Positions 40,678 through 57,828 of a DNA stretch of 64,000 nt are shown here, in pieces. Location of the stretch: positions 248,001 to 312,000 of the forward strand of contig NZ_JAAOZT010000002.1 of assembly GCF_011947285.1 (NCBI RefSeq), written 5' to 3'. Position 1 is the stretch's first letter. Every line of letters begins with the position of its first letter. This DNA comes from Glaciimonas immobilis (lineage in GTDB: Bacteria; Pseudomonadota; Gammaproteobacteria; Burkholderiales; Burkholderiaceae_D). The notes under the pieces are model-generated. The model saw only the letters and a list, made by a program, of their open reading frames with translations. It was not told where the DNA came from and searched no databases. The position numbers were made by a program, and so were the translations under genes.

Positions 40678-40919
40678 CAGCAGGGAAGGCGTGACGTAAA
40701 GCAGCGCACTAATTGCCACGACCAACGTGAGGGGGATTAATATAAATAGGTGAGCAGGGTTGAGATATTACCGAAACAAGGCGAGACATATCGAAATATA
40801 GAGGCGTCGATTTGTAAAAGCGTTACAAAAGTTGCCCCACATTTCATTCGTAGCTTTCAACTTGAAGTTGAACTTGCGCGCTCTTCACCTTTCGAACGGC
40901 AATCTACAGAAGCTGCCAT
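40678..40919. other. Junction between hmp and the Gabija genes
   Basis: 242 bases between tail-to-tail genes. No gene or clear terminator is visible. It is one of two places where the edge of the acquired region could lie. A stretch near 40850-40885 (TTTCAACTTGAAGTTGAA) contains an internal palindrome. Confidence 0.4.
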
Positions 40920-42548
40920 TTATCCGAATAGATTGTCTAGACCTGGCCTTGCGAAAAATTGTGAGGGGGCACCATTTTTGACTTGGTTATAACTATTGAA
41001 TCGTTTGCTCGAGGTCACTAAGCAACAGAATTTGCGAGCACGAGTAATCCCAACATAATGCAGATTTAGACACTGCTGTTCGTCATGATAGTGGACATCC
41101 CAATTACCTTCGAGGACTATTCGACGAGGCAATATCCAGTCATATAAATCTAAATGAAAAACGATTTTAAATTCAAGACCCTTAGACTTGTGTAAAGTGA
41201 GAATTTGTACTTCGTTATCTGCGATAGGTGCGAATGACGCCAAGTGAGTGGTACTTTCAAATACTTGCCGAAGTAACGTTATTGACTCTTCCGAAGGCGG
41301 TTTACCTGTTAGCGCCAAAATTACCGGTAAAGTACTACTCTCAAATTCGTCTTGGCTACATAGCCGACAGAGTTGAATTGCTATACGAAGGGCATTTCTG
41401 ACATCGACGGTAAACTCTAGAGGGGAAAACTCGCTAATTAGGGATTGGGCCGTAAGTCTAGTATTAAACCGATAGGTTAACAAACTCTCAATGATTCGGG
41501 AACTCAGGGAGGTAGAGTTAGTGAATGGATTACTAAAAAAAACTCTATGAGGAATCCCAATATTTTGGCTAATTAATTTCGCCGTATTTTCACTTCGAAC
41601 CAAAATACCGACGTCCCTATTATTGATAACTTGATATCGCGCTTTGGTAGCATTTAATTGGTTTGCTATCCAACTCGCAATCTCAATTTGGCTTCCAGGC
41701 AAATGTCTTCTTATTATTGCGACTTCGGTTGACGGGAGTAGCGGATGATCTTGTGAAAGCAAACGATTGGCATAATTGGCTATAGATGGGTGGCACCTAT
41801 GATTAACGCTTATTGTGAATGCCTCAAATCCGCTTCTACTGGCTGATAATTCTGCAAGAAACTCTGGAAATTTACCAGTAAATCGATAGATGGATTGATC
41901 TCCATCACCCACAGCCACCGCAATCAACCCTAAGTCACGCAATTTTAGGAATAAGCCATGTTGAGCCTCCCCGGAATCTTGGTATTCATCTATGAAAACG
42001 TGCGTATAGGCGGATTTTATGTATCGCTGACATGATAGTGATGTATTTAAAACATGAACCGCCAAAATACCCACTGCTTCTAATAAAATAATTCCATCTT
42101 GAAGGAGGTGGTATATAGCTCCAATAATTTCTGCTGTGTCGCTTGTTTTTAGAGGCAGCCTGCTTTCAAAGTCCGGAAACAAGGCTTGTTGACTTGACGA
42201 AAGGTCAGCAAATCGGGACACACTAATTTCAAGACTATTAGAAATTATTACCATGTGTTTTATAAACGGCAAAATGATTCTGCCAATACAAAATTTATCA
42301 ATAGTCCCAAAAAAACTACCTTTTACGTCGAGATTTCCCGCCTTGCATCTATCACGTAATTCATCGCTGGCTTTATTGGTGAACGATATCGCGATAACAC
42401 CTTTGTAAGAAGGAAGACTGGCAGTAAGTGTACGGATTTTTCTGGAAATCACCTCGGTCTTGCCGCTCCCAGGACACGCAGTGACCACCATATGGCCGAG
42501 ATAATCTATTGCTAATACTTGTTCGGCGGTAGGAGTGAATTCGCTCAT
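40920..42548 (-). CDS. gajB: Gabija protein GajB (UvrD-like helicase)
   Basis: A 542-residue superfamily 1 helicase. Walker A is ACPGSGKT (residues 24-31), motif Ia AISFTNKASDEL, motif II VFIDEYQDSGEAQH, motif V LTLHKSKGLEFK and motif VI YVGITRARK. It is compact and lacks the C-terminal parts of UvrD/Rep, as GajB does. It begins two bases after an OLD-family nuclease gene, the defining Gabija pair; in the known system GajB senses or processes DNA ends and activates GajA. Base composition is lower in G+C than the host genes before it. Confidence 0.9.
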   Translation of the reverse strand: MSEFTPTAEQVLAIDYLGHMVVTACPGSGKTEVISRKIRTLTASLPSYKGVIAISFTNKASDELRDRCKAGNLDVKGSFFGTIDKFCIGRIILPFIKHMVIISNSLEISVSRFADLSSSQQALFPDFESRLPLKTSDTAEIIGAIYHLLQDGIILLEAVGILAVHVLNTSLSCQRYIKSAYTHVFIDEYQDSGEAQHGLFLKLRDLGLIAVAVGDGDQSIYRFTGKFPEFLAELSASRSGFEAFTISVNHRCHPSIANYANRLLSQDHPLLPSTEVAIIRRHLPGSQIEIASWIANQLNATKARYQVINNRDVGILVRSENTAKLISQNIGIPHRVFFSNPFTNSTSLSSRIIESLLTYRFNTRLTAQSLISEFSPLEFTVDVRNALRIAIQLCRLCSQDEFESSTLPVILALTGKPPSEESITLLRQVFESTTHLASFAPIADNEVQILTLHKSKGLEFKIVFHLDLYDWILPRRIVLEGNWDVHYHDEQQCLNLHYVGITRARKFCCLVTSSKRFNSYNQVKNGAPSQFFARPGLDNLFG

Positions 42549-42550
42549 AA

Positions 42551-44263
42551 TTAAATAAGGGTTAAAGCAACACAGAAATTAAGAGGTTTGGCGACTTCCC
42601 CTCCGCCGAGTCCCGTCAGTGATACACCTGGGTCCGATAAAAACTCCCGCATCCGAATCGCTTTTTTACCTTGAAGGTATTTGATTGCAAGTTCAGAGGT
42701 GCCCTTAAACAAAGCAAACTCAGCCGGTAGCTCCTCTGCTAGATCGTGTTCTAGGTCAGTCTTTGATAAAAATATCCCAAGCCGATTAATTACCGCCGAT
42801 GTGCTAGACCACGCGCCGTCGGTTAATGAGTCGGAATGAGTATAAGGCATAGGCTGATGGGCTAAGGGAGGTTCACCAACCAGATTCCTACACCGATTAA
42901 TTCCAGCCAGTTGCCTTAAAATGATTTTAGCCGTAGCGGGACCAGTCGAAATATCAGAGATATCATTATCTGTTCTCATGGACCAAGGTATGTCCATTGC
43001 ATCAAGGATTTTGATATAAACTTCAAACTGAGCGCCATCTACGGACAAGATGGATATATTGTAATAATCAAGGTCAATGTCCAAATGCGCTGCCAACATG
43101 CGATAAAAAAGCATCTCTGAAGGACCTTCTACAAGTAACACGGCACTTGAAAAAAATGATTCGGCAGGAAGAATGCTCATCCGATAACCCATGTCGCCCC
43201 ATGCTGCATCGATGCAAGACGAACACCCTCCGCTGGCAGCTTGAGTTGCACCATTTTTAGTCAAAAGACGAATAATCGAGTCGGGCTGATAATTTGCGAC
43301 GATCTGCGGGGAGTGCGTGGTAACAATAGACTGGCCCGGCAATTTAGAAATAAGGTAGGTCGCCAGTTTTCGCTGTTGGTGGGGATGAAGATGCGCCTCT
43401 GGTTCTTCAACGCAAAAAATTACCACCTCATTATCCATGTCATGGTCACGAGTACTCTTGGCTTTCCAAAGCGCCAGTAAAATCTGGTTATTGCGACCAT
43501 CGCCACCTAGCATCATTTTGGCACCACTCGAACTTGCTGCAAGCTCAAGTTTCTCAATGAATTGGCTAACTTCAATAGAGCCAGTGTCGAGTTGAACAGA
43601 GTAGTTAGCATTTTGATGCGCTAGCGCCTTCAATTCGGTATTCAAATCTCCTGTCGCTGCCGACACATAGTTGAGATTGCGAACCCGTTGATTTATTCCA
43701 TTTAACCCTCTCCCGATCTTTTTAAGAATCTTGTTATCAGCTTGCATAACAGCTTCTGTGCGGTTGTCCTGAGCTAAGCGGAGAAGGTGACGCTTCTCGG
43801 TCTGTATATATTTGGTTAAATCCCTTTGTGAATTGACAAATCGAAGATTCAAATATTTTAGATAGTAGCGAGCCGGTATCTCTTCGAGATTTGCAAGACT
43901 GGAACCTACAAAAATCTTGTGCTGAAGCGTTTCTCTAACGGCAGAGAATTTGAAATAAGTTTCTTCAGCGTCGCTGATTCGCCCTGGTAGTTGCGAAATA
44001 ATAGCATCCTGCTGAACTTCAGAAAAATGTATGATTATTTCGAATTCATTGGCCTGAGCACCGGTCGAATCGATATGAAAATCAAGTTCAGAAGGCTCAA
44101 TGTCGACTTCTGAAAGTGATTTATCTAGCAACAGGCGCATCGCGTAAATGAGATTTGTCTTTCCTATATCATTTGAACCAATTATTAAGGTTTGTTTCGC
44201 AAAAACAATTTGCGCATCAGAGAAATTGCGGAACCCCTTCAGATGCATCGTTTTGATATACAT
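42551..44263 (-). CDS. gajA: Gabija protein GajA (OLD-family ATPase/TOPRIM nuclease)
   Basis: A 570-residue OLD-family endonuclease, close to the usual GajA length. The N-terminal ABC-type ATPase has Walker A GSNDIGKTN (29-37) followed by LIYAMRLLLD, a GajA-like block. A signature-like GGDGRNNQ lies near 253, Walker B with Glu286-Glu287 in CVEEPEAHLHP, and the His switch in TTHSPQIV. The TOPRIM domain follows: LLVEGPSE with Glu379, SVDG with Asp409 and RTDND near 430-434, all intact. In known Gabija, GajA nicks phage DNA when nucleotides are depleted. All catalytic positions I can check are present, so the system looks functional. Confidence 0.9.
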   Translation of the reverse strand: MYIKTMHLKGFRNFSDAQIVFAKQTLIIGSNDIGKTNLIYAMRLLLDKSLSEVDIEPSELDFHIDSTGAQANEFEIIIHFSEVQQDAIISQLPGRISDAEETYFKFSAVRETLQHKIFVGSSLANLEEIPARYYLKYLNLRFVNSQRDLTKYIQTEKRHLLRLAQDNRTEAVMQADNKILKKIGRGLNGINQRVRNLNYVSAATGDLNTELKALAHQNANYSVQLDTGSIEVSQFIEKLELAASSSGAKMMLGGDGRNNQILLALWKAKSTRDHDMDNEVVIFCVEEPEAHLHPHQQRKLATYLISKLPGQSIVTTHSPQIVANYQPDSIIRLLTKNGATQAASGGCSSCIDAAWGDMGYRMSILPAESFFSSAVLLVEGPSEMLFYRMLAAHLDIDLDYYNISILSVDGAQFEVYIKILDAMDIPWSMRTDNDISDISTGPATAKIILRQLAGINRCRNLVGEPPLAHQPMPYTHSDSLTDGAWSSTSAVINRLGIFLSKTDLEHDLAEELPAEFALFKGTSELAIKYLQGKKAIRMREFLSDPGVSLTGLGGGEVAKPLNFCVALTLI

Positions 44264-48206: not shown

Positions 48207-49988
48207 TTACACAGCCCGCAAGCCACCAACCGCGAGGCGCGGGACGTCTTGCTCGACATTGCTAAATTGTGCGATCAGTGCGGCGATCTGATCCTCTGGA
48301 ACGCCCCCGGCATAACGTGCGCTAAAGAAGGCATTTTCTTCATCCGATAGATAGCGATCAATACCGCGAACAATGCGCAACATTGCGGCAGGCGCCGTCA
48401 ACATCGGGACGTCAACCTGCACCGGATTAGCGATTTCCAATTGCTCACCTTTACGCGGGATATACGCTGGCAAGGGTGTATCTTCAATACGTTTATAAGG
48501 ATTTATGCGTCCACCGAACGCTAGTTTTTTCGCCTTACGCGACGCCGCTGCATCGCTCAAGCTAGTCGTGCCGGTCGCCAGCATTTCGATTTCTTTACGA
48601 GCGGTCTGTGCTGGCGTATCAGCGTGACGCTTATAGTTCTCACTGATTATTGCCGCATTGACGGCAAAGCCATGCTCGTTCTTCTCTATGCGTTCAAGGA
48701 CGAAATACAGTTCATGACCATCTGCACCGACGCCAATAGCTTGTATGCTGTTTTCACGCCAGGGATTGCAGCAAATTAAAATCTTCTGGCGCACCATCAC
48801 ATCCGGTACACCCGATACATCCCATTCGGCACCGTCGTATTGCACGGTCAAAAAATCAGAGACGATACGCGTTACTGGCGCTGATATTGCCAACTCTCGC
48901 AACACCTCTGTCGGCGGTGCAATACGCAGTTGATCGGCAGTGATTTGCATCCAAGATGCATAACGCGTTTTACCCGTACGTGAATGGATCGCCGTCGCGT
49001 TGTAATAGCGCATCCATTTCCAGGCCAGCGCATTCAACTCTGCATAAGAATTCACTGCCCATAATTTCAAGCCAGATTCAAATGATCGTTCGACCATGTC
49101 CTGTGCTTTTTCGACTTGCCCTTTAGCGCGTGGTGCGTGCGGTTTATTAATCTGCACCCGTATTTGCAGGGAGTGACATAGATTCTTAAACACCGCACCA
49201 GTATTGGCTGATCCTGGATCAAGCATCAGCATATACGGCACACCATGGAAAGGATCAGCACCGCGCGCCACCATCGCAGTGATTAATACATCGGCCAGAT
49301 TCCCGCCGGTTTCACCACCCGGCACATACATGACAAAAATGGTGCCGCTGGTGTGGTCAGTGATCACGTAACGCCAACAGGCTTCATCTAACGCACGTTT
49401 TAGATTAGCCGGTTTGTTAGGGTAATACTCCTCTTTATGCATTATCTGCAAACCATCATTCTTGCTCCCCGGTGTAACCTTCAGGTAATACAGAACGCAA
49501 CGCGAAGCGTCTATTTGCCAGACGTGGTTAGGGTGCTTTGAAGCCAGCCGAATCGCTGGGTCTGGTTGTAGTAACTGATCGGGATGCAGCTTATAAGTTC
49601 GCAATCCGGTGGCGACTGCTGTAGTCGATAGCATGCGTAACTCGCCCGTCGCCGGATCAGTTCGTGCCGCTTTAATCAAATCATTGGCGCGTAACATATC
49701 AATAGCCTCTTCTACCGATTTCAAGCGTTTATTGTTCTTGCGCATATGCTCAATTAATACTGCGGATATCAACATGGCTTCGTCCCGGGTTAATGCAGTT
49801 TTACCCGCATCACTACGGCGTTTGCGCGGGGAAGTTACTGCCACATCCTTGATTTTTCTGTGTAAAGTACCCAATGAAATACGCAGTTCAGCACATGCGG
49901 CGGCATAGATCGCACCCTTGGTGCCCTGCGGCGCAATACGTGCGCGTTGCGCGATATCTACCAGACGCTCTGTCATGGCCGCACTCAT
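48207..49988 (-). CDS. A: MuA-type DDE transposase
   Basis: A 593-residue phage transposase that cuts and joins the prophage ends during integration and replication. An N-terminal helix-turn-helix (LRISLGTLHRKIKD) is followed by an rve-type catalytic core with the DDE triad visible as Asp160 (VWQIDASR), Asp257 (LMLDPGSA) and Glu293 (GQVEKAQ), then a Mu-transposase C-terminal beta-barrel. All three catalytic residues are intact. It starts two bases after the DUF3102 gene. Confidence 0.95.
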   Translation of the reverse strand: MSAAMTERLVDIAQRARIAPQGTKGAIYAAACAELRISLGTLHRKIKDVAVTSPRKRRSDAGKTALTRDEAMLISAVLIEHMRKNNKRLKSVEEAIDMLRANDLIKAARTDPATGELRMLSTTAVATGLRTYKLHPDQLLQPDPAIRLASKHPNHVWQIDASRCVLYYLKVTPGSKNDGLQIMHKEEYYPNKPANLKRALDEACWRYVITDHTSGTIFVMYVPGGETGGNLADVLITAMVARGADPFHGVPYMLMLDPGSANTGAVFKNLCHSLQIRVQINKPHAPRAKGQVEKAQDMVERSFESGLKLWAVNSYAELNALAWKWMRYYNATAIHSRTGKTRYASWMQITADQLRIAPPTEVLRELAISAPVTRIVSDFLTVQYDGAEWDVSGVPDVMVRQKILICCNPWRENSIQAIGVGADGHELYFVLERIEKNEHGFAVNAAIISENYKRHADTPAQTARKEIEMLATGTTSLSDAAASRKAKKLAFGGRINPYKRIEDTPLPAYIPRKGEQLEIANPVQVDVPMLTAPAAMLRIVRGIDRYLSDEENAFFSARYAGGVPEDQIAALIAQFSNVEQDVPRLAVGGLRAV

Positions 49989-52441: not shown

Positions 52442-52867
52442 ATGAGTACAAATATGGGCATTGGATTACGACTTAAAGAAGAGCGCGAGCGACTCGGCAT
52501 GAGTCAAACCGAATTCGCAGCGCTGTGCGATGTAGGCCGAAAAACACAATTTAACTACGAGAGCGACGAGAGATCACCGGATGCCAACTACCTGGCGGCG
52601 ATCGCGCAATCTGGTGCGGACATTGGATACATCGTCACTGGCAGGCATAGTGACGCCAAGATTGCGCAAGGCACTATCGTCAACTGGACGTTGCTGGAGC
52701 AAGTCATTGTCGGCGTAGAGGAATTTCTGACTGAACGTAAAGCCAAACTGAAGCCGGAAAAAAAGGCGGGTCTGATCCGCGTCTTGTATGCCAAATTTTC
52801 AGACGACAAGAATCTCGACCAGACCCGATTCAATGATTTTATGGATGCGGTGATGACTACCGTGTAA
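52442..52867 (+). CDS. Prophage repressor (XRE/Cro-CI family)
   Basis: A 141-residue protein with an N-terminal XRE helix-turn-helix (RLKEERERLGMSQTEFAALCDVGRKTQ) and a C-terminal half of unknown fold (helical, EEFLTERKAKLKPEKK). It is expressed toward the late side and faces the early operon. No ribosome binding site precedes the ATG at 52442, so it may be leaderless-like or begin at 52454. It keeps the prophage silent. Confidence 0.88.
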   Translation: MSTNMGIGLRLKEERERLGMSQTEFAALCDVGRKTQFNYESDERSPDANYLAAIAQSGADIGYIVTGRHSDAKIAQGTIVNWTLLEQVIVGVEEFLTERKAKLKPEKKAGLIRVLYAKFSDDKNLDQTRFNDFMDAVMTTV

Positions 52868-52891: not shown

Positions 52892-53614
52892 ATGGCAAAA
52901 GAAGAACGAAATCAGATAAAAGATTTTTTAGAAGATTTGATGCCGGAGGAGACGGGGGACGGGGTTGGCAGACATTACGAAGTACATACTGGCGGGGATT
53001 ACGTCGGTGGCAATCAATACCACGCCACCAATTACATTCAGCCCAGAAATAGCCGTCGTCTCACCCGTGAGGAACGGCGCTCCCTGAATGATATGGTTAA
53101 AGAACTGGCCATAAATTTTGGAAACTCCGGGGAACAAACCTGGACAGCTATTCACCAAATCCTGGGCGTCGATAACATCGAGGACATGCACCTTGATCAC
53201 TATATTCCGGCAAAAGGTATTCTTCGGTTACTACTAAAAAATGCCCAATCAAGCAGGGATGCAGGCGATGGCACTAATACTGCTTCGCTGCGTTTTTTAA
53301 TACGTCAGTCAAATGATGCACTACGAACGCAGACCCATCGGAATACTACTCTGGCAGCCTTACTCAAAACTTCAAAGGACAAGGTCACGAACCTAAAATT
53401 CGAGATTAGAGAAAAAACCGACGAAGTACGAAACATGGGTATCAAACTCCAGTGGGCATTGGAGGATTTAAAACGATCGCCATCGGAATACAGCCGCCGA
53501 AAATCTACTCATGCATCGCCTGCCAATGGCCGCAAGCATTTGCTGGTAATTTTCCTCACCGCGGGAACGACCGCTGGCGCTATTTATTTATTTTCACTCG
53601 CTAACGCGGCGTAG
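52892..53614 (+). CDS. Repressor-linked membrane-anchored protein with GDYVGGNQY motif
   Basis: A 240-residue protein I do not recognise as a whole, 24 bases after the repressor stop with GGAGG upstream. Residues 34-44 (GGDYVGGNQYH) resemble the Gly-Asp-Val-Gly-Gly motifs seen beside effector domains in predicted bacterial immune proteins. Residues 56-115 resemble an ORF6C-type phage domain (LTREERRSLNDMVKELA). Residues 135-195 are coiled-coil-like, and 216-235 form a single C-terminal membrane helix. It is likely co-transcribed with the repressor and so expressed in the lysogen, suiting an exclusion or immunity role; this is inference. Confidence 0.8.
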   Translation: MAKEERNQIKDFLEDLMPEETGDGVGRHYEVHTGGDYVGGNQYHATNYIQPRNSRRLTREERRSLNDMVKELAINFGNSGEQTWTAIHQILGVDNIEDMHLDHYIPAKGILRLLLKNAQSSRDAGDGTNTASLRFLIRQSNDALRTQTHRNTTLAALLKTSKDKVTNLKFEIREKTDEVRNMGIKLQWALEDLKRSPSEYSRRKSTHASPANGRKHLLVIFLTAGTTAGAIYLFSLANAA

Positions 53615-53833
53615 TCCGCATCAAAGCGGCTGGCCAACTTCAAAAAGGTATTAGCGCGTAGTCGCAAAGCGAATGCGGGCGGTACGAAGCGAATGAATCC
53701 GCGAAAGGTTAACGCACATACGGCCACAAAATAGCTTGTTCGATCCAAGAACAAAACCAAACGAAAAACAACCGTAACGTGCGCCTGCGCAAAATTTGTC
53801 GATACTTTGATTATTAAATTTTTTAGGATAAAC

Positions 53834-54400
53834 ATGCAGACTGTTTTAATCATTACTCTGTTGGCAACCTTGACCGTAACCTTATCCGGTTGCGCCACCA
53901 AAAATTACGGTCGTCTCAGCGGCGTCACTGATTATGAAAAGCGCTCACTGACCTGTCGTGAAATAAATATTGAGATCGCGCGGACCGAAGGCTTTGTTCA
54001 AAAGGTTGATACCGAAAGCCAATTTGATGGGCGCTCCGTGCTCTCGTTTTTGGGTGATTATGGGATTGGTAATGTGATCGAAAAGAATGGCGCTGTGAAT
54101 AGTGCGGATGAGCGGATGGCTGCGCTACAGGTTTTGCGGAAAGAGCGTTGTGTTGGCGCGCTGACCGTTGCAGTTGCTATATCTCCTGGTCAACCGACTA
54201 TTCCGGGGACTGTTGTAGAAAAAGGTGGAGAGTCTTCGGCGACGGCTGAAAGGTTAGCGCGGCAAGCCAGTTGCGTACCGCTGGGCACTGCGGTATTGAT
54301 TGGCAAAATGCCCGGTGTGGAAAATTATCGGGTTGATTGCGAGGACGGGCAGCAAGCGTTGGTCAAATGCGAGATGCGGCAGTGTCGGGTTTTGGAGTAA
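53834..54400 (+). CDS. Prophage-borne lipoprotein
   Basis: A 188-residue protein with a lipoprotein signal: MQTVLIITLLATLTVTLSGC, with Cys20 lipidated. The mature part has several Cys residues (TCREIN, ERCVGA, ASCVPLG, DCEDGQ, KCEMRQC) that may form disulphides. No family recognised. It is 219 bases after the repressor-linked gene. Lysogenic conversion of the cell envelope, such as receptor masking, is one possibility. Confidence 0.75.
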   Translation: MQTVLIITLLATLTVTLSGCATKNYGRLSGVTDYEKRSLTCREINIEIARTEGFVQKVDTESQFDGRSVLSFLGDYGIGNVIEKNGAVNSADERMAALQVLRKERCVGALTVAVAISPGQPTIPGTVVEKGGESSATAERLARQASCVPLGTAVLIGKMPGVENYRVDCEDGQQALVKCEMRQCRVLE

Positions 54401-54523: not shown

Positions 54524-54658
54524 CTATTTGCCCGTTTTTGGCTTTACGGGTGAAGACGGAGGCTGGCGAGTAGTTTCGCTTCTCTCACTAATGCTACCAA
54601 GAACCGAGCGAGTTGCGGGAGGCGGTGGCGGCGGAGGTGGCGGTTTTTTACTAGCCAT
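54524..54658 (-). CDS. Tiny polyproline ORF overlapping upstream gene
   Basis: A 44-residue frame: MASKK, then nine prolines, then a Ser/Thr/Arg-rich tail (PATRSVLGSISERSE). Its ATG lies eight bases inside the end of the upstream membrane-protein gene (ATGGCTAG, where TAG is the upstream stop). The nine-proline tract mirrors residues 234-242 of the upstream protein, which are likewise preceded by a Met and a short Lys-containing leader. It may be a translated small protein or a broken-off repeat of the upstream tail. Confidence 0.4.
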   Translation of the reverse strand: MASKKPPPPPPPPPATRSVLGSISERSETTRQPPSSPVKPKTGK

Positions 54659-55475
54659 TTTTGCTGCCTCGTTGAGGTGGACTCGGTGGTCGTGGTGGCG
54701 GTGGTTTATGCTGATCAGGTCTGCCGCGGTCTTCCCTAATCTCCCGAGCGGGCGGTGGTGGAGGAGGAGGAGGAGGCTTTTGATTGGTCATGACATCTTC
54801 TCTGAAAATTACGGGGCTGGAAATTTCAATTTTTTGTATCGAACGAGTCAAATTCTTATCAAGCTTTCCGAAGTAAAAAAATCCGAAGGCTGCGAAAGTG
54901 AAGAGAGCTGTTGCAACGAGACACCTTAAGATTATGAAAACGTAAGAAGCTTTTTCTGCATTAATTGCACCGTTTTTAGTCCCGCACTTAATATATATCG
55001 CAATAATATTTTTTTTAACTGCAGCGGCTACAAGCGCATCGGCATTACTGTAGTCAATATAAAGTGCGACACATTGTTTATGATGCTTACTCCACTCTTC
55101 AGGGTCGGGTAGGTAGCTATATGTCTTGCCGATTACTGATTTTACAAAATAAATCGCCGCACTAGTGAGTCCAAGAACTGCAATTAATAGAAATGACCAG
55201 AACCATAAACCTGCGCCTGCCTCATTGGTACGTTGAACATTCTGAAGCATGTGGCCAATGAAACCAGCAAGCGCAAGAAATGTAACAAGTGGAAGTTGCA
55301 GTCTTTGGGCGACCTTATCGCGTCCATCAATCTCATGAAAGTAAATTTTTTCGTACAAATCATCTAATACGCGATTATGAGGGAGCATTTCATGCTCTCT
55401 CTCAAACGCCTCTTTTTCGTGTGTACGAACACGAAAAATTGCACTTCCTTTACCGCTAGCTTGCTTACCTGACAT
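54651..55475 (-). CDS. Three-helix membrane protein with polyproline tail
   Basis: A 274-residue protein, no family recognised. Membrane helices at about 59-77, 90-111 and 177-203; a soluble segment between the second and third. The C-terminal 45 residues are proline-rich: nine consecutive prolines at 234-242 and further PPPPRPPSPP. It begins 14 bases after the upstream Abi_C/AbiJ-like gene, so the two form an operon. A soluble HEPN-like partner plus a membrane protein is a plausible defence pair, but this is inference. Long proline runs stall ribosomes unless EF-P acts. Confidence 0.75.
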   Translation of the reverse strand: MSGKQASGKGSAIFRVRTHEKEAFEREHEMLPHNRVLDDLYEKIYFHEIDGRDKVAQRLQLPLVTFLALAGFIGHMLQNVQRTNEAGAGLWFWSFLLIAVLGLTSAAIYFVKSVIGKTYSYLPDPEEWSKHHKQCVALYIDYSNADALVAAAVKKNIIAIYIKCGTKNGAINAEKASYVFIILRCLVATALFTFAAFGFFYFGKLDKNLTRSIQKIEISSPVIFREDVMTNQKPPPPPPPPPAREIREDRGRPDQHKPPPPRPPSPPQRGSKNG

Positions 55476-55489
55476 TTTAATTCACGGCG

Positions 55490-56398
55490 CTAGAAAGGTA
55501 CGTCATTTTCATGAGAATTTGACAGGTCGACCATGTAAATAATCTGAGAGGCACATACCGCAAGTACATATTCCGCCACCTCACGCGTTGCTGCACCGCC
55601 TGCTGCACCGCCATGACCGACGCCGTCTCCCCCACTGCGGTAAGCATAGATACCCGTAATAGTCTGGACTAATGCTTTAGGCATAGCTATGTCTTTCGCC
55701 GAAGCAAACCACTTGGCCAAGTCTCCTAAGGTTGCAGCCCTCGCCGCTGGGAACAGGGCTTTACCCGCCGCCTCAACAGCACAAACAGCCTCCTTCACGC
55801 AATTTTCGTAGTCTGGACTAGACGGGCTACGGAAGAACTGTAGCGCTTTATCGTAATGTTTACGCGCACTGGCTAGACGAACGTCGCCTAGAACAACTTG
55901 TGCCCTAGTAGCGATGTCCACCGTGTGTTTTCTGCCGCGCCTACGAACTAGGCCTTCTGTGAACTCGAAGGCCAATTCTTCTTCGAAAAATAGTCGTTGA
56001 AGTTCGCTAGCGATAAATGCCTGTACCTCAGTTTTTTGCATTGTTACTTGGAAGTCGTTGTTATAGTGAATTCCAACTTCCCGGGCCATGTAGTTGTGCA
56101 GCCGTTCGCAGAAGTCATAAGCCTTATCCCAGCTTAGTCCCGCTAGCGCCTGTTCCGCGTCTTTTTTTGCTCTTTGGGAACTATTTGGACCCGAATTGTT
56201 ATATTCGATAGGTGGAAGTCGAGCAATTCGCTGAAGCTCCCGTGCCAAAGAAATCCAGCCATCTATAAAGTCCCTGTCAATTAAATCTAAAAGGAGGTGC
56301 AAGAGCCCAATTTGAGCGCTCGGGGGAAATTCAGCATCGATTTGACGATGAGCCCCTTTATTTCGGGCTGAAAACGGAGCCTGTTGCGAGCTATACAT
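55490..56398 (-). CDS. Abi_C/AbiJ-like (HEPN-type) predicted abortive infection protein
   Basis: A 302-residue soluble protein. The C-terminal 110 residues resemble the Abi_C or AbiJ HEPN region: DYENCVKEAVCAVEAAGKAL (196-215), LGDLAKWFASAKD, and the glycine-rich GGDGVGHGG (257-264) that takes the place of the RN-x-GHG motif of that group. Residues 1-150 are helical with a conserved-looking YDFCERLHNYM segment. It is the first gene of a reverse-strand unit with the three-helix membrane protein, inserted between the phage repressor region and the late genes. Confidence 0.7.
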   Translation of the reverse strand: MYSSQQAPFSARNKGAHRQIDAEFPPSAQIGLLHLLLDLIDRDFIDGWISLARELQRIARLPPIEYNNSGPNSSQRAKKDAEQALAGLSWDKAYDFCERLHNYMAREVGIHYNNDFQVTMQKTEVQAFIASELQRLFFEEELAFEFTEGLVRRRGRKHTVDIATRAQVVLGDVRLASARKHYDKALQFFRSPSSPDYENCVKEAVCAVEAAGKALFPAARAATLGDLAKWFASAKDIAMPKALVQTITGIYAYRSGGDGVGHGGAAGGAATREVAEYVLAVCASQIIYMVDLSNSHENDVPF

Positions 56399-56833: not shown

Positions 56834-57202
56834 ATGTCCCGCATCACCAGTCACATCCCGCTTTTCCTTCGCCTGCCACGCAGCACGACGTGGGGCCTTA
56901 TCGCTGCCATTCTGCTGATCGCATTGGCGCTACTGGCTCCAATTCAAATCCCCGTCGCCTTATACAAAATTACCCTGATCTCTCTGGCCGCTGTCATCGG
57001 TTACTGGATCGATCGCGCCATTGCGCCTTACAGCCGTCCCGATAGTTACTTGCACCGCGACTGGCGCTTCGGTACCGATGAGCCGTTGGGTGGTGTCGAT
57101 TATCCGGTGGTCGATGGCTACAAGATGATTTTTGCTTCGGCCATGATTCGGCGAGCGGTAATTGTCGCCGCCGTGGTGCTCGGTGTTGCGCTGGGTCTTT
57201 GA
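56834..57202 (+). CDS. Putative phage holin
   Basis: A 122-residue protein with two N-terminal helices (about 20-35 and 42-60) and one C-terminal helix (105-120), matching the putative 2/3-transmembrane holin family of Mu-like phages. It makes the inner-membrane lesion for the endolysin coded next. CAGGAGCGCCC precedes the ATG. Its stop overlaps the next start by one base. Confidence 0.8.
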   Translation: MSRITSHIPLFLRLPRSTTWGLIAAILLIALALLAPIQIPVALYKITLISLAAVIGYWIDRAIAPYSRPDSYLHRDWRFGTDEPLGGVDYPVVDGYKMIFASAMIRRAVIVAAVVLGVALGL

Positions 57203-57828
57203 TGACGCGCGCTTGCATGGCATTGTTGCTGGTGATGTTGAGCGGCCTGGGTTTCGGCGATGCTTTTGCCGTTGAAATTCCGATGGCCGCACGGCAGTAT
57301 CGTGCGGAGCTTATTCGTAATGCCCGTGCTGTGTGGGGACTGGACGCACCGGTGGCGACCTTCGCTGCACAAATTTATCAGGAGTCTGGTTGGCGGTCTG
57401 ACGCGATGTCGCGGGTGGGCGCGCAGGGGCTGACGCAATTTATGCCGACCACCTCAAAATGGATCGCCGGGCTTTATCCGCAATCGGTGGGGAGCGCGCA
57501 GCCGTTTAATCCATCCTGGTCGATGCGTGCACTCGTGCAATATGACCGTTGGTTGTTTGATCGGATCGCCGCTGCCAACCCTTGCGAACGTCTGGCCTTT
57601 ACGTTGTCGGCCTATAACGGTGGCTTGTCATGGGTCAATCGCGACAAGAAGCTGGCTACCCGTAAGGGGCTGGATCGCCTGACCTGGTTCGACGCGGTGG
57701 CGACCGTTAACAGTGGTCGCTCCGCCGCTAACTGGCGAGAAAACCGCACCTATCCGCAACGTATTCTGAAGCGCTATGAGTCGCAGTATGTGGCGGCGCA
57801 TTGGGGTGAAGGTGGATGCAATGAGTAA
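57202..57828 (+). CDS. Phage endolysin (SLT lytic transglycosylase)
   Basis: A 208-residue lytic transglycosylase with an N-terminal signal sequence (ACMALLLVMLSGLGFGDAFA), so export through Sec is likely. The SLT domain carries the catalytic Glu in YQESGWRSDA, followed by GAQGLTQFMPTT and the late AYNGGLSW. It degrades peptidoglycan at lysis. The start at 57202 overlaps the holin stop. Confidence 0.92.
   Translation: MTRACMALLLVMLSGLGFGDAFAVEIPMAARQYRAELIRNARAVWGLDAPVATFAAQIYQESGWRSDAMSRVGAQGLTQFMPTTSKWIAGLYPQSVGSAQPFNPSWSMRALVQYDRWLFDRIAAANPCERLAFTLSAYNGGLSWVNRDKKLATRKGLDRLTWFDAVATVNSGRSAANWRENRTYPQRILKRYESQYVAAHWGEGGCNE

Follow-up and report, generated by a model that had tools for sequence, protein, structure and literature searches.

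We propose that the 302-aa protein encoded on the reverse strand at 55490-56398 of the window (the whole 64,000-nucleotide stretch of Glaciimonas immobilis DNA analysed here) is a prophage-borne abortive-infection HEPN effector, and that the membrane protein and poly-proline peptide encoded beside it form a separate, co-loaded accessory module (probability about 0.6). The best reading of the cassette is one of stacked lysogen defences, in which an HEPN abortive-infection effector lies with an independent membrane/poly-proline module. The effector reading is supported by matches of the protein to PDC-S32 and AbiJ_NTD4, by its HEPN-like predicted fold, by relatives carried as phage cargo and by a Gabija pair that appears to lie on the same prophage.

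A reverse-strand cassette on a B3-like prophage

The original prediction described a 302-aa ORF (55490-56398, −) and, after a gap of 14 bases, a three-helix membrane protein (here the 274-aa ORF 54651-55475, −), placed between the repressor region and the late genes. We observed both ORFs and their spacing as described, and the cassette lies between an HTH repressor (52442-52867, +) and lysis genes (56834 and 57199, +). Two forward ORFs share the repressor side of this interval. A third reverse-strand ORF, a poly-proline micro-ORF that had gone unmentioned, lies downstream of the other two. No promoter stood out (3 found, 4.0 ± 2.0 expected). The features are as follows.

40722-40751, no strand: putative prophage left end (CCAACG at 40722-40727, then TG at 40728; alignment to the B3-like end sequence starts at 40751)
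40920-44263, reverse: complete, adjacent Gabija pair (GajB 40920-42548, GajA 42551-44263; 1.7e-240 and 5.6e-193)
48207-49988, reverse: transposase A (46.8-53.9% identity in the 30 phage records listed)
52442-52867, forward: HTH repressor (HTH proteins found near the membrane module in other phages are 36-49% identical to it over 65-82 residues)
52892-53614, forward: slot ORF of 240 aa (labelled in 8 further readable slot loci)
53807-54400, forward: slot lipoprotein (phrog_10370, 3.3e-33)
54524-54658, reverse: 44-aa poly-proline micro-ORF, MASKKPPPPPPPPPATRSV..., with an 8-nt start/stop overlap with the membrane gene
54651-55475, reverse: 274-aa protein with three hydrophobic helices and a proline-rich tail (phrog_36961 match)
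54750-54776, reverse: nine-proline run, residues 234-242, in the fused tail of the 274-aa protein, followed by AREIRED
55490-56398, reverse: 302-aa AbiJ_NTD4 plus HEPN-like protein of the PADLOC PDC-S32 family (Pfam, PADLOC, structure model, Foldseek)
55511-55930, reverse: helical HEPN-like C-terminal domain, residues 157-296 (limits from the helices of the model)
55613-55639, reverse: candidate HEPN motif R254-SGGDGVG-H262 (GIRHA-like letters at this point in most relatives)
55922-56374, reverse: AbiJ_NTD4-matching N-terminal part, residues 9-159, the presumed sensor/regulatory half (25.3 bits, cut-off 34)
56834-57828, forward: holin-like and lytic transglycosylase genes, the right border of the cargo slot

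The transposase and the gene order (leftward early genes, repressor, slot, lysis, terminase) are those of a B3-like transposable phage. The transposase matched 58 phage records at a coverage of at least 80%, with identities of 46.8-53.9% among the matches listed. The Gabija pair lies to the left of a Mor-like gene (Mor assigned by eye); in JBD25 and H72, Mor opens the gene order, with about 124 bp between it and the left end. CCAACG, a 6-bp sequence, is repeated beside TG at 40728 and beside CA at 84187 (window numbering). Such a duplication is not decisive by itself, since about 0.1 to 0.5 would be expected by chance (our own estimate); the left end was assigned by similarity to the B3-like end sequence. 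This aligned best at 40751 (score 71, the best of 247 TG sites), compared to a best score of 46 outside the four sites containing that end stretch; the alignment places the stretch, not the exact base. From these sequence features we infer that the Gabija pair lies inside the left end of a prophage of about 43.5 kb. Two DNA methyltransferase-like genes (by eye) were seen at the right end, at 82374-84021 in window numbering.

The 302-aa protein resembles AbiJ-type HEPN proteins

The 302-aa protein had been likened by eye to Abi_C/AbiJ-type HEPN proteins. The AbiJ part of this assignment held, by homology and by predicted fold, whereas the Abi_C model (PF14355) was unmatched up to E = 1. PADLOC models of PDC-S32 matched the protein at 4.5e-27 (residues 71-293) and 3e-21. 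Pfam AbiJ_NTD4 (PF18863) matched residues 9-159 at 2.4e-5, with 25.3 bits, below the curated cut-off of 34. PHROGs and NCBIfam gave zero matches up to E = 1. In PADLOC, PDC names denote candidates, according to an excerpt of its description (PMC11514479), and the word PDC-S32 was absent from the open-access literature searched. By sequence, the 302-aa protein joins a known family of defence candidates as a new and divergent member. Passages of the 2013 HEPN survey treat AbiJ as an HEPN family fused to NTD1-5, and predict that the NTD restrains a suicide RNase (PMC3710099).

An AlphaFold2 model of the protein reached a pLDDT of 84 (input alignment of 30 sequences), with residues 263-266, the loop right after the motif, below 50. 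The top Foldseek matches in the PDB were the HEPN proteins 2hsb, 1ufb, 1wol and 1o3u (probabilities 0.98, 0.97, 0.72 and 0.57; target TM 0.64-0.66; E about 1 to 4). Unrelated proteins also appeared at E of 1 to 1.5, but with low probability. The matches of best probability, at E of about 1, thus point to a C-terminal HEPN fold. A viral fold library searched with the HEPN model returned nothing, and PDB chains searched by sequence with the profile gave zero matches up to E = 1.

The GGDGVGHGG stretch singled out in the original prediction is present, at residues 256-264 and not 257-264. The HEPN ribonuclease motif is R-x4-H, and its spacing may span x4-6. The window protein has R254-x7-H262, and because of this spacing we do not file it as a proven HEPN RNase. 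The relative in genome G151 (60% identical) reads FRSGGEGVGHGG at the motif, keeping R, H and their x7 spacing. Most other relatives read YTSD.GGIRHA or similar, with R immediately preceding H, where the window protein has G; in three loci (L102, L138, L141) the region reads RN...GHG or RN...AHG.

One alternative is that this clade has lost HEPN catalysis, which would make the 302-aa protein a regulator or its gene decaying cargo. The x7 spacing, the loss of the R beside H and an in-frame stop in the G151 gene, the nearest full-length relative, all favour this. Against it stand the intact window ORF and the presence of both motif residues, R and H, in G151, and we consider a dead domain unlikely.

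Two known groups offer a comparison. The window protein is like PDC-S32/AbiJ_NTD4 proteins in size, in its NTD4-like N-terminus and helical HEPN-like C-terminus, and in being phage or plasmid cargo. It differs from them in its motif (R-x7-H with G before H, GIRHA-like in most others), in its sub-cut-off NTD4 score and in the membrane gene that follows. Tha of S. aureus prophages, as described in parts of PMC11087260, is a prophage-borne RNase of 301 aa with HEPN at 184-296. The shared features, taken from description and not from sequence, are a length of about 300 aa, a prophage location and a C-terminal HEPN domain. Unlike the window protein, Tha has the R-x4-H spacing, and an inhibitor gene overlaps it in antisense (PMC11087260).

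Relatives of the 302-aa protein recur as phage cargo

With the window protein as query, nine of 399 genomes of the order matched, its own included (8/398 others); one match was 60% identical over nearly full length and another reached just 8e-4. PDLC04997 as query matched 16 of 398 genomes of the phylum, again with its own (15/397 others), some merely at 1e-4 to 1e-5, and 2/14 control genomes matched in this search too. Four Leptospira plasmids matched the 302-aa protein over 72%. A scan of genome contigs with one sequence found one relative (68% over residues 8-216), truncated by the contig end.

Among phage records, tblastn matched neither the 302-aa protein nor the 274-aa protein, nor the membrane-family member of L187. 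A profile built from six relatives led to 37 viral contigs. The ORF was retained in 36/38 viral loci (the 37 contigs plus L182; 35/37 of the contigs alone); the L180 ORF, at a contig end, has only 81 aa. IMG/VR also contains the window phage itself. The gene is therefore not absent from other phages, as its relatives recur as phage cargo, and the relatives in genomes and viral contigs show that the ORF did not arise by chance alone.

The closest full-length relative, that of G151 (L004/L015), is solitary in a chromosome and carries one in-frame stop. Another relative (L018) lies inside an apparent restriction operon (by eye).

The repressor-to-lysis interval is a variable cargo slot

The original prediction held that Mu-like phages usually carry no reverse-strand unit at this place. 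For this phage type that is wrong: JBD25, JBD67 and Ps56 have a reverse-strand gene there. H72 and Fc02 have none at that place. Among viral relatives of the transposase, the best 80 of 522 confirmed loci were kept. The stretch from late/lysis to repressor/early genes was readable in 65 of these, own phage included, the other 15 having no recognisable late gene. Across the 65 readable loci, the repressor-to-lysis stretch was variable cargo. Many of the short reverse ORFs in the slot are probably spurious.

PADLOC was run on 28 ORFs, namely 24 of the 179 unlabelled slot ORFs (at least 80 aa) and four others; two matched (L102 and L093) and 26 did not. The slot gene of L102, a related phage, matched PDC-S32 at 1.1e-8, Pfam AbiJ_NTD4 at 5.6e-23 and DUF7014 at 7.3e-49. 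Within the 80-locus set, an AbiJ gene also occurs outside the slot in two more phages (L153 and L158, the contigs of L075 and L066). The slot gene of L093, another related phage, matched the defence candidate PDC-M18A at 3.4e-138 (L093:4534-5556, −). The slot of L068 holds a gene for an NdpA-like nucleoid-associated protein (PF04245; L068:6075-7157, −). In B3-like phage Fc02, passages of one study report that the lysogen transcribes the repressor and a downstream accessory gene, and that the switch region confers exclusion of other phages through olg1 and gene 10 (PMC9936078).

The HEPN and membrane genes meet, so far, only in this phage

The soluble and membrane genes had also been taken for an architecture common in abortive infection, but as a conserved pair they found no support in our searches. 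The AbiJ profiles (A6, A3) matched 76 loci and the membrane profile (A8) matched 39; both matched in 10, all of them copies of the window phage. Among the loci searched, the pair was absent from any other phage. Many loci were mutually redundant and some flanks were short (about 1.5 kb for most loci from the genome search), so this negative is strong but incomplete. For the collected loci a conserved pair was rejected, and to date the combination belongs to this phage alone.

These counts bear on a second alternative, a single two-gene system in which the HEPN protein senses or cuts and the membrane protein executes or anchors. The two genes do share a strand, with a gap of only 14 nt, and RexAB is a precedent for a two-gene system with a membrane executor or anchor. 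HEPN-TM, named as a PICI immune system in part of a review (PMC12948488), is similar by that description alone in having HEPN and membrane parts on a phage-related element. However, the two profiles meet exclusively in window-phage copies, and the close AbiJ relative in G151 stands alone. A joint system is thus improbable, and we retain the reading of two independent modules in one slot.

A rare membrane family with poly-proline tails or micro-ORFs

The sole good match of the 274-aa protein was phrog_36961, of unknown function (1.9e-14). PADLOC and NCBIfam returned nothing for it, and Pfam returned PRIMA1 alone, at 0.011 and below cut-off, which we attribute to the prolines. A SLATT identity was rejected, there being no Pfam match above cut-off. 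A fold search with the weak model of the protein (pLDDT 71) gave long-helix matches only. An Rz/Rz1 spanin identity for the proline-rich micro-ORF was likewise rejected, as it has no lipoprotein signal (by eye).

The membrane family is rare. It was found in 3/399, 6/398 and 2/360 genomes, own included each time, the non-own match in the last search being a doubtful relative. It also occurred in 11 viral loci (own included) and in 18 plasmid records, 16 of them from Pseudomonas. A run of at least seven prolines was present at the C-terminus, in a separate micro-ORF or in both in 16 of the 19 members examined, which form 11 groups at 60% identity; L125, truncated by a contig end, was left out of this count. 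The exceptions were L123, L124 (which ends near a contig end) and L192 (with five prolines in each of two runs). Beyond these 19, a proline run is also present in L196 and L197 but not in the doubtful L205. In control loci without the family, such a run occurred in 1/2875 ORFs of at least 150 aa; an initial control that still included family loci gave 17/856.

The micro-ORF accompanies many family members; it is about 40 residues long, carries a run of 7-12 prolines and then usually R.[VI], and overlaps or closely trails the membrane gene. Fused tails and micro-ORFs mostly share the proline run followed by x, R, x, [VI], [RK]. This pattern is missing after the prolines in the P7+ segments of L127, L197 and L198, and is loose in the window micro-ORF.

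The membrane genes stand beside diverse neighbours

In five loci (L184, L187-L190) the membrane family has an HTH protein next to it that shares 37-49% identity with the window repressor across 65-82 residues. In three others (L183, L185, L186) the membrane gene follows, by 14-19 nt, a caspase-like gene that itself follows a ThsB-type TIR ORF; the caspase genes are about 90% identical, and we counted these loci once. In L185 the caspase-like gene matched PF00656 at 4.1e-19 and the TIR ORF matched PF08937 at 8.1e-10. His and Cys are present in all three caspase-like proteins, and the L183 TIR ORF is just 97 aa. TIR, caspase-like, three-helix membrane and poly-proline ORFs are consecutive at L183:735-2723, L185:3309-5306 and L186:4626-6561.

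A TIR protein with a caspase-like protease is the make-up of type IV Thoeris, according to parts of PMC12847820; the window cassette has neither TIR nor caspase. As a general third subunit of type IV Thoeris the membrane protein was rejected: from 54 plasmid records, four caspase loci were examined, three of them carrying an annotated TIR gene, and the membrane family was missing from all four.

In G467, a type I restriction gene stands on one side of the membrane gene; on the other come a short second HsdR-like ORF and then a type I methylase. At L201:6636-12833 the membrane-family gene lies within a type I restriction operon that also encodes a CARF/RtcR-like regulator, and is followed by a short second HsdR-like C-terminal ORF. 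A conserved upstream partner in bacterial genomes was rejected: the upstream genes resembled GyrB, aspartate oxidase and dihydroorotate dehydrogenase (by eye), with G467 the exception. Other members were solitary or, on plasmids, near integrase or toxin-antitoxin genes.

The membrane protein and poly-proline peptide may instead have nothing to do with anti-phage immunity and form a toxin-antitoxin or exclusion pair. The plasmid settings near integrases and toxin-antitoxin genes, the solitary members after housekeeping-looking genes (by eye) and the micro-ORF that overlaps or closely trails the membrane gene are all consistent with this. Members also adjoin TIR-caspase, type I restriction and AbiJ genes, however, and we hold such a pair to be possible but somewhat improbable.

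A more ambitious and doubtful idea is that the cassette holds an undescribed mobile immunity module. It would consist of a three-helix membrane protein and a poly-proline peptide whose P7-P12 run mostly continues with x-R-x-[VI]-[RK], present as fused tail, micro-ORF or both, beside phage repressors or defence genes. The peptide should need EF-P for its synthesis, and could report on translation during infection, gating the membrane protein as a ribosome-stalling sensor. Alternatively, it could occupy a partner that the fused tail also binds. We found no fitting paper for this idea in the open-access literature searched.

Proposed function

On the preferred reading of two separate lysogen defences, the AbiJ_NTD4 half would keep the C-terminal HEPN ribonuclease silent and would sense a product of an incoming phage. 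Once triggered, an HEPN dimer would cut RNA and the cell would arrest or die, sparing sister lysogens as in a Tha-like response. The membrane protein and poly-proline micro-ORF would be an accessory module in the same cargo slot, probably co-transcribed here. This module may act at the membrane, in superinfection exclusion or by damaging membranes, with the peptide as its regulator. We count against the effector reading the sub-cut-off NTD4 score, the R-x7-H spacing, the G before H, the low-pLDDT loop and the Foldseek E values of about 1 to 4, together with the empty viral fold search, the lack of a PDB sequence match, the stop in G151 and the promoter result.

By inference, the window phage is a transposable prophage with two defence cargoes, Gabija and AbiJ-HEPN. 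Its repressor-to-lysis interval is a defined place to look for further cargo, and the R-x7-H HEPN clade probes how far the catalytic motif can stretch. The 302-aa gene is of a known kind; the membrane/poly-proline module is the novel part. It is small, recurs beside unrelated immune genes and is matched solely by an unnamed PHROG in the libraries searched, and its function is therefore directly testable with two short genes.
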